A stretch of 33,954 nt of DNA from an uncultured Methylococcales bacterium. Its GTDB lineage: Bacteria; Pseudomonadota; Gammaproteobacteria; Methylococcales; Methylomonadaceae. Location: NCBI GenBank assembly GCA_913009265.1, contig CAJVYL010000006.1, forward strand, positions 1-33,954, written 5' to 3'. This document shows, piece after piece, positions 9,315 to 12,196 of the stretch (its first letter is position 1; each line of letters starts with the position of its first letter). Both the position numbers and the translations under genes were made by a program. A model generated the notes under the pieces. It ran no database searches. It had not been told where the DNA came from and saw only the letters and a program-made list of their open reading frames with translations.

Positions 9315-10034
9315 CTAACCTTTTTCTATCAGAGAACCGATGTCTTCGCCTTGCATAAGGCGCATAATTGATCCTGGTTCAAAAACATTCATAACTCGCA
9401 TTGGGAGGTCATTTTCACGGCATAAGACTAAAGCCGTTGTATCCATTACGTTTAAACGTTGATCTAGCGCCTCATCATACGTTACTCTTGAATAAAACTT
9501 AGCGTTTTCATCTTTTTCAGGATCAGCTGAAAAAACACCTTTAACTTTTGTCGCTTTAATCATTAATTCAGCATCAATTTCTATCGCTCTAAGGCTTGCT
9601 GCTGAATCAGTCGTAAAAAATGGATTTCCAGTACCTGCAGCAAAAATCACAACACGCCCTTTTTCTAAATGTCTTACTGCTTTACGACGAATATAATCTT
9701 CACAAACTTGATTTATTTTTAGTGCAGTCATTACGCGAACTTGTTGCCCTAAATGCTCAAGTGAGTCTTGCATAGCCAGCGCATTAATTACAGTTGCAAG
9801 CATCCCCATCTGGTCGCCTGTCACTCTATTTAAGCCTTCTGCAGCTTGTTCCTTGCCTCGCAATATATTTCCACCACCGATTACAAGTCCAACTTCAACA
9901 CCGGCATCACATAATTCTTTAACTTCAGCTGCAAGACGTTTGACTATTTTAGCGTCAATACTTCCACCTGTTTCGCTCATTAAAGCTTCGCCACTTAATT
10001 TAAGTAAAATTCGTTTGCATATCATTTGAGTCAT
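9315..10034 (-). CDS. pyrH: Uridylate kinase (UMP kinase)
   Basis: [25 protein letters not shown]. Start placed at internal Met ([15 protein letters not shown]) rather than ORF start 10103, whose first 23 codons look like non-coding spacer. Confidence 0.93.
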
Positions 10035-10124
10035 GATCAAAAATCCTATAAATAATAAATTAAGTGTAAATTTAAAAACTATATACAAATACTGTATTAG
10101 CATAAATTCTAAATACTACTTCCC

Positions 10125-10282
10125 TGTTGCTTGCAGTTTCTTGCTCCTGAAAAAACCGCACGTACTAATTCCTTGTGGCTCACAGTTTTTTGCTCCTGCA
10201 AAAACTGCATGTCCTAACTCCTTATGGCTCACAGTTTTTTGCTCCTGCAAAAACTGCATTCGCCACTTCCTTGTGGCTCATA
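10125..10282. repeat. 49-bp tandem repeat, three full copies plus a partial fourth
   Basis: Units 10125-10173, 10174-10222, 10223-10271 (e.g. tgtggctcacagttttttgctcctgcaaaaactgcatgtcctaactcct) then partial tgtggctcat from 10272. Each unit contains an inverted repeat (cagtttttt gctcctgc aaaaactg). Confidence 0.93.
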
Positions 10283-10306
10283 AAAAACCCAGTAGAAACT
10301 GAGTTT
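10282..10306 (-). terminator. Rho-independent terminator after tsf
   Basis: Minus-strand AAACTCAG TTTCTA CTGGGTTTTTT: 8-bp stem (one G-T), 6-nt loop, T-run, 10-35 nt after tsf stop. Confidence 0.75.
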
Positions 10307-10315
10307 CTTAGTCAA

Positions 10316-11200
10316 TTAAGCAGAAGCTTGCGCCTGAGCTTTTACTTCTTCAGCAAAATCTAGCTCTTCTTTTTCGATACCTTCGCCTACTTCAAAACGA
10401 GTAAAACGAACAACAGAATTATCTTTAGACTTAGTTAATTGCGCAACAGTCATTTTGTCGTCTTTAATAAACGCTTGACCTTCAAGTGTTGTTTCAGCTA
10501 AGAATTTTTTAATTCTACCAACAATCATTTTTTCTACGATTTCTGGTTTTTTGCCACTTTCTAGTGCTTGAGCCGTAAAGATATCTTTTTCTTTCTGAAT
10601 AACGTCTTCAGAAACTTGATCTTCAGATACACATGCTGGGTTAACAGCAGCCACATGCATTGCGATATCTTTACCTAGTTCAGCATCATTTTTTGCCAAT
10701 TCGATAATGACAGCAATTTTACCACCATGTAAATAACAAGCTGTTCCGCCTTCAACGTTTGAATATTTTTCAAAACGTCTAATTGAAATATTTTCACCAA
10801 CTTTAGCAATTAAAGCACGACGAGTAGTTTCAACTGAATCACCGCTTGCTAATACTGTTTCAGCTAATTGCTCAGTATCTTTTAAATCGTTGTTTAATAC
10901 AGCCTCTGTTACTGCTGTTAAAAAACCATTAAAGTCTTCACTTTTTACCACAAAATCTGTTTCACTATTTATTTCGATCATAGCAACAGTTTTGCCATCA
11001 TCACTTGCTTTAATGCCAATAGCGCCTTCAGCTGCTACACGACCTGCTTTTTTATCTGCTTTGGCAAGGCCTGATTTACGCATATTTTCAATAGCTAATT
11101 CCATATCGCCATTAGCTTCAGTCAAGTTCTTTTTACATTCCATCATTCCAGAACCTGTTCTTTCACGAAGTTCCTTAACCATTACAGCCGTAATTTTCAT
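10316..11200 (-). CDS. tsf: Elongation factor Ts
   Basis: MKITAVMVKELRERTGSGMMECKKNLTEANGDMELAIENMRKSGLAKADKKAGRVAAEG. Confidence 0.98.
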   Translation of the reverse strand: MKITAVMVKELRERTGSGMMECKKNLTEANGDMELAIENMRKSGLAKADKKAGRVAAEGAIGIKASDDGKTVAMIEINSETDFVVKSEDFNGFLTAVTEAVLNNDLKDTEQLAETVLASGDSVETTRRALIAKVGENISIRRFEKYSNVEGGTACYLHGGKIAVIIELAKNDAELGKDIAMHVAAVNPACVSEDQVSEDVIQKEKDIFTAQALESGKKPEIVEKMIVGRIKKFLAETTLEGQAFIKDDKMTVAQLTKSKDNSVVRFTRFEVGEGIEKEELDFAEEVKAQAQASA

Positions 11201-12052: not shown

Positions 12053-12196
12053 TTGTTTCTCCTAAAGTTATTCGGTTATCGCTTTAACAAGCGACAAACC
12101 TGGGTTTCGCCTCCACCTATCCCGCCTAGAAACCAGTTAAAAAACTAGCACCCTACCAGCCGTGTCGATAAATGTGAGTATTAATACAAAAATGAA
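12053..12196 (-). promoter_or_regulatory. Structured 5' leader of rpsB, candidate S2 autoregulatory leader
   Basis: Minus-strand stem-loops CTGGTTTC-TAGGCGGGATAGGTGGAGGC-GAAACCCAG (12100-12136) and TCGCTT-GTTA-AAGCGA (12079-12094) between the predicted promoter and the start codon. E. coli rpsB leader is known to be S2-regulated. Confidence 0.6.

Follow-up and report, generated by a model that had tools for sequence, protein, structure and literature searches.

Organization of the tsf-pyrH Spacer

The window analyzed here, that is, the whole stretch of 33,954 nt from an uncultured Methylococcales bacterium, carries on its minus strand the genes tsf and pyrH, and the spacer between them is the site of a tandem array whose first base lies directly 3′ of a terminator-like hairpin following tsf and whose 3′ end falls ~80 nt upstream of the pyrH start. 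TRF finds a 49-bp unit tandemly present 3.4 times at 10114-10280 on the minus strand, which confirms the 49-bp units with AGGA-loop hairpins that an earlier sequence-only reading had described between the two genes. The features are given below in their minus-strand order, where R1 denotes a covariance model built from 34 copies of the repeat (alignment A1).

10316..11200, minus strand: tsf, the 5′-side gene (ORF translation)
10281..10312, minus strand: tsf terminator-like hairpin, AAGAAACUCAGU-UUCU-ACUGGGUUUUUU (RNA fold; not scored by the consensus scan)
10230..10280, minus strand: unit 1, complete element (R1 model match, E 1e-13; fold z -4.3)
10181..10231, minus strand: unit 2, with an intact hairpin 2 and a hairpin 1 that has lost its stem but not its GGA (fold z -1.3; R1 model match at 10180-10233, E 5.7e-9)
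10132..10182, minus strand: unit 3, with a diverged hairpin 2 whose pairing is preserved by two G-U pairs and a broken hairpin 1 that still has its GGA (fold z -0.7)
10114..10133, minus strand: fourth unit, partial (AAGCAACAGGGAAGTAGTA; array end at 10114 by TRF)
9315..10034, minus strand: pyrH, the 3′-side gene, start MTQMICKRI (ORF translation and family search)

On the minus strand, hairpin 2 reads GCAGUUUUUGC-AGGA-GCAAAAAACUGU in two units, unit 1 among them, and GCGGUUUUUUC-AGGA-GCAAGAAACUGC in one, and its stem runs for 9 bp to a bulged A, beyond which two G-C pairs close the AGGA loop. The sequence-only reading had assigned one hairpin to each unit; its AGGA hairpin stands, but it overlooked a second one, hairpin 1, which reads GCCAC-AAGGAA-GUGGC in unit 1 and is intact in that unit only among the three full units. 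The G-U pairing that had been noticed in the most diverged (third) copy is real, and the minus-strand array RNA, once folded as that reading had proposed, proves more stable than its shuffles (z = -3.5, 0/200), as does the plus strand (z = -3.8), which is what a palindrome would lead one to expect. The minus strand of 10114-10282 (169 nt) holds eight GGA, in line with the count of the sequence-only reading, and zero TCC, the GGA count by itself being unremarkable (P ~0.07, mononucleotide shuffling). A consensus scan detected neither a promoter-like site upstream of the array nor a terminator at its far end, the same scan having left the tsf terminator-like hairpin unscored, and cmscan of the window and five loci gave the repeat no match to CsrB, CsrC, RsmY, RsmZ, or any Rfam family.

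Two further observations concern the surroundings of the array. An 89-aa ORF on the plus strand (10033-10302) reads the repeats in antisense and is probably not a genuine gene; the ORFs that overlap copies of the element in Methylotuvimicrobium buryatense are antisense in 12 cases and sense in 2. The t44 RNA (RF00127), a known leader element upstream of rpsB, lies at 12104-12196 of the window (minus strand).

The Spacer in Related Genomes

Among the congeners, the array is present at tsf-pyrH only in our own genome (G000) and in G006, where the hairpin-2 stem is altered on both sides (CAGT/ACTG to CCAT/ATGG). It is missing at this site in G001-G005, in G008, and in nearly all the other family members examined, and the spacers of G003 and G004, the closest congeners by PyrH (95%), are without it, while G007 retains a decayed copy that has lost the GGA. 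In another genus, these hairpins have entered the tsf-pyrH spacer of G089 independently, oriented as in the array studied here, and its sister G067 has none. Because the spacer differs in this way among G006, G007, G003, and G089, the array is not a conserved component of the operon; in all likelihood it was inserted in this lineage specifically and is now in part decaying, and, to judge from the sequences compared, the tsf-pyrH spacer is a recipient of repeat insertions. The G003 spacer (L088) also holds what remains of another inverted-repeat element, GTAACTATTTAGC...GCTAAATAGTTAC, whose intact relatives in the same genome enclose GGA hairpins.

Serial hairpins with GGA loops are the hallmark of CsrB/RsmY-type sponges and of CsrA-controlled leaders, and the sequence-only reading had accordingly proposed a CsrA-responsive segment in the rpsB-tsf-pyrH operon. 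That such a leader or sponge is dedicated to this operon now appears improbable: the GGA strand is indeed the operon-sense one, the G006 array is homologous, sits in the same spacer, and shows compensatory stem changes, and the independent G089 insertion has the same orientation, but the array is absent from the spacer of most relatives, closest congeners included, the G007 copy is devoid of GGA, hairpin 1 is broken in 2/3 units, and the consensus scan shows no separate promoter upstream. We therefore rejected a CsrA-regulated tsf-pyrH leader, for which there is neither conservation nor orientation bias.

Dispersal of the Two-Hairpin Element

Our own genome is represented by a 2.17-Mb assembly of 166 contigs that is 64% complete, and belongs to the same family as M. 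buryatense (G017). Besides the array it has a single locus, C30:17118-17171, where the stem (CATCA/TGATG) is a third compensated version. Elsewhere the repeat is abundant. BLAST matches the 49-bp unit in 7/61 relatives and the R1 model in 18/61, with at least 94 R1 copies in M. buryatense, 46 in G003, 29 in G012, and 17 in G006; beyond the relatives, R1 matches 36/276 sampled Gammaproteobacteria and 16/299 genomes of the phylum, 14 of the 16 being from the same class. Tandem arrays with the 49-bp period recur in M. buryatense (positions 2620608/657/706). In a scan of genome_contigs a 17-base core was found, among the matches listed, in Methylotuvimicrobium, Methylomonas, Methylovulum, Marinobacter, Microbulbifer, Saccharospirillum, Colwellia, Shewanella, Paraglaciecola, Endozoicomonas, Thalassolituus, and others, part of these being chance coding-sequence matches that lack the stem; the matches in viral contigs are of this kind and were rejected as true copies. 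Phage records yielded no element and plasmid records a single one, which amounts to a chromosomal bias.

It is thus well supported that the array is a tandem insertion of a widespread two-hairpin repeat, which is apparently undescribed, no description having been found in the open-access literature. The alternative that the sequence-only reading had itself named, a dispersed repeat family, is borne out by copies in random orientation across relatives and other Gammaproteobacteria. Chance palindromes, or plain tandem duplication without wider relatives, might be suggested by an incomplete genome with only one array and one further locus, but are scarcely credible in the face of hundreds of homologous, covarying copies in other genomes.

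Several loci show the repeat in larger contexts. At L305 (1501-1660, G000:C30) a composite GGA-rich array begins right after a stop codon, its nested hairpins ending in CGAGGAGC and resembling the G006 tsf-pyrH array, and on an Endozoicomonas acroporae contig (L177) several group II introns adjoin copies of the element.

Insertion and Mobility

Discrete insertion is most directly seen in genes that the element interrupts. In IS66-type tnpC, taking out exactly 49 bp restores the canonical HDHW-KPYY frame in 3/4 loci tested, the remaining one being shifted; the empty site was reconstructed by joining the flanks, and it has no match in the plasmid collection. A 49-bp insert occurs at the same tnpC site (HDHW|KPYY) in several Methylococcales genomes (L009, L010, L011/L284, L015/L301, and L197), and may reflect either one old event that the IS has since distributed or a site that the element prefers. 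The second case is the tmRNA gene of G006 (L007/L404, G006:C59:189-616, minus strand), in which a copy of ~50 bp lies inside the loop of a UUCG hairpin; the site is empty in G001, G003, and G007, and the G006 tmRNA with its insert, a natural extension of a tmRNA hairpin, is still predicted as a tmRNA by ARAGORN. Both the IS66 and the tmRNA insertions place the GGA strand antisense to the gene they interrupt. No terminal inverted repeats were seen on the 49-bp unit; the IS66 insertion shows no target-site duplication, and TCGG may be one at the tmRNA. Many copies are nested in larger palindromic, inverted-repeat, or MITE-like units, such as a larger host unit in M. buryatense with the terminal inverted repeats CAGCAATTCCCA...TGGGAATTGCTG, and some of the spread is therefore probably due to hitchhiking.

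REP hairpins are recognized by Y1 transposases. The present hairpins could likewise be read as single-stranded DNA by a mobility enzyme, their likeness to CsrA sites being coincidental, and we regard such a DNA-level mobile repeat as having close to an even chance. It would account for the discrete ~49-bp insertions and their random orientation, for the recurrence of 49-bp tandem arrays in M. buryatense, and for a bias toward chromosomes in which phages give no match and plasmids one record, but would leave the match of the A-N-GGA-U hexaloop to coincidence and is without a linked enzyme. The Y1 transposase (PF01797) is missing from the carriers G001 and G282 and is found in several non-carriers, and this inconsistent presence across carriers led us to reject it as the mobilizer; the genomes examined yielded no mobility enzyme linked to the element.

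Orientation Relative to Genes

Where copies fall in gaps between tandem genes, the wide set has 12 with the GGA strand in the sense direction and 15 with it antisense; the corresponding counts in M. buryatense are 16 and 9. Pooled, same/same stands at 28 against opposite/opposite at 24 (p = 0.68), the genes having been called by a simple longest-ORF rule that makes single orientation calls rough. This absence of bias argues against a general cis-acting role in mRNA and also against transcription-linked mutation as the source of the G-U excess described below.

Structural Constraint on Stems and Loops

The stems of the element vary, and the GGA in its loops is conserved. In alignment A1, 94.3% of the cells are paired, against 79.6% when shuffled, and double-sided, compensatory changes occur in 9/16 pairs; the covariation score is 0.404 compared with 0.140 for shuffled alignments, none of 500 shuffles reaching 0.404 and the slid controls staying at or below 0.082. 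For hairpin 2, a raw census of all hairpin loops was too noisy, and hairpins of the form N5-GC-loop-GC-A-N5 were counted instead: among the gammaproteobacterial loci fetched, AGGA fills 103/108 such loops on 15 different stems, and the variety of stems is the stronger point of the two because this set was partly fetched by its own AGGA core. In an evenly stepped sample of 400 kb of the M. buryatense genome, AGGA is present in 7/9 hairpins of this form.

Hairpin 1 played no part in the selection of copies. In the 46 copies examined, its GGA positions are 93-98% conserved, compared with 57% for the adjacent loop base and 41-85% for the 5′ stem arm; the GGA is kept in 42/46 and a hexaloop with at least three closing pairs in 37, and the loop reads A-N-GGA-U/A/C in most copies (ATGGAT in 21/42, AAGGAT in 7/42). 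The two GGAs of the element lie 22 nt apart on the same strand. The wobble pairs, in turn, indicate which strand folds, and the bias that had been noticed in a single copy holds family-wide: in a sequence-selected set G-U pairs outnumber A-C by 33 to 3 overall and by 14 to 2 once the outermost pair of each hairpin is left aside, and in a model-selected set by 33 to 11 with outermost pairs excluded (18 to 5 in M. buryatense alone). The corresponding p values of 0.001-0.01 are optimistic because the copies counted share ancestry and certain wobble pairs are markers of whole subfamilies.

Taken as sequence evidence, these patterns support structural constraint on the GGA-loop strand. The importance that the sequence-only reading had attached to the GGA loops is upheld, as they are the most conserved letters family-wide over covarying stems. 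That reading had associated a repeat family of no CsrA role with a lack of both strand bias and GGA conservation; orientation is in fact random (28 vs 24), but GGA is conserved in the loops.

CsrA as a Possible Reader

The CsrA consensus derived by SELEX is RUACARGGAUGU, mainly in six-base loops closed by AC/GU, with short stems favored, and the CsrA dimer bridges sites separated by at least 10 and at most 63 nt, with an optimum above 18 nt (PMC7652899). Set beside this consensus, unit 1 reads ACAAGGAAGU. Hairpin 1, with its ANGGAU hexaloop and free stem, together with the 22-nt spacing of the GGAs, closely matches the SELEX and bridging data, and hairpin 2, with a tetraloop on a long, very stable stem, is the poorer match. 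The gene csrA is present in 52/54 good-quality relatives and in 7/8 congeners. It was not found in our own assembly, but a completeness of 64% and the presence of the gene in 7/8 congeners make this uninformative, and the missing csrA was for the same reasons rejected as a refutation of a CsrA reading.

CsrA is thus a plausible, though tentatively proposed, reader of the GGA loops. A portable CsrA-binding element, that is, a mobile module whose GGA loops are kept by CsrA binding to its transcripts and whose dual site is bridged by one dimer, so that it serves as a dispersed sponge or a local docking site, seems quite possible without being probable. It is suggested by the ANGGAU hexaloop and the 22-nt spacing (PMC7652899), by a loop that is fixed over a stem free in sequence, by the G-U bias that points to the GGA strand as the folded one, and by the prevalence of csrA among the relatives, but it has to contend with an orientation that is unbiased with respect to genes, with a GGA strand that is antisense in the IS66 and tmRNA insertions, with the very stable tetraloop hairpin 2 where SELEX preferred short stems, and with the lack of any CsrB/RsmY/RsmZ match in Rfam. 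More speculative is the full proposal of a mobile gammaproteobacterial element that acts as a dual CsrA-binding RNA module, docking site or sponge, in up to ~100 copies per genome, with CsrA preserving the loops and the stems free to drift as long as changes are compensated. CsrA-like recognition may accordingly be regarded as a live idea for the element and not for the tsf-pyrH locus.

Interpretation and Implications

Building on what is demonstrated here, namely that the copies are dispersed, that they insert as ~49-bp pieces, that their stems covary, and that their loops are conserved, we interpret the array as the tandem amplification of a ~49-bp non-coding mobile element, REP/MITE-like and with CsrA-like loops, and put the probability of this reading at roughly 0.8; recognition of the hairpins by CsrA or as single-stranded DNA would be two more specific versions of it. 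The element would consist of two serial hairpins, one with an ANGGAN loop and one with a GC-AGGA-GC(A) loop, the GGAs being on one strand, and its copies would enter many different sites, facing either way, in Methylococcales and other Gammaproteobacteria. We infer that the element spreads or persists by way of a folded single strand, on which the GGA loops and not the stem sequence are what is recognized, the candidate readers being CsrA acting on element transcripts, which is the most specific one, or a mobility enzyme. At the locus itself, read-through from tsf would expose about eight GGA and might make the array a minor CsrA decoy, not a conserved regulator of pyrH.

If CsrA does bind, a mobile repeat could rewire or titrate the network of a global regulator through its copy number, and M. 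buryatense, a cultivable methanotroph with at least 94 copies, offers a direct test system. Even without CsrA, this is a widespread structured element with no Rfam match, in which fixed loops over free stems point to a loop-reading partner, and which would explain some of the spurious small ORFs in carrier genomes.

Comparison with Known Systems

The element resembles REP/REPIN, BIME, ERIC, NEMIS, and RU sequences in being short, non-coding, palindromic, multi-copy, and mainly extragenic, in occurring in either orientation, and in forming tandem clusters. It differs from them in that its stem sequence is free whereas the GGA loop and the bulged A are fixed, and in that it comprises two unlike hairpins in direct series; unlike in REP/RAYT systems, the 5′ GTAG foot is not seen in A1, where the unit starts near GAC/TTA and the stems vary with compensation, and the Y1 transposase is not in every carrier. 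With bacterial MITEs it shares the character of a non-autonomous insertion unit with empty and filled sites (IS66, tmRNA, and the G067/G089 spacer), and many of its copies are carried inside larger units bounded by terminal inverted repeats, although the 49-bp unit itself has neither such repeats nor a clear target duplication. Its serial GGA-loop hairpins on one strand, and a hairpin 1 near the CsrA SELEX consensus, recall CsrB/CsrC/RsmY/RsmZ, from which it is set apart by being dispersed, multi-copy, and randomly oriented, with no Rfam match and with no promoter or terminator of its own found by the consensus scan. Finally, the two GGAs ~22 nt apart fall inside the bridging range and liken the element to a glgC-type CsrA dual-site leader (PMC7652899), whereas the array is not tied to a ribosome-binding site, stops ~80 nt short of the pyrH start, and is unconserved there.
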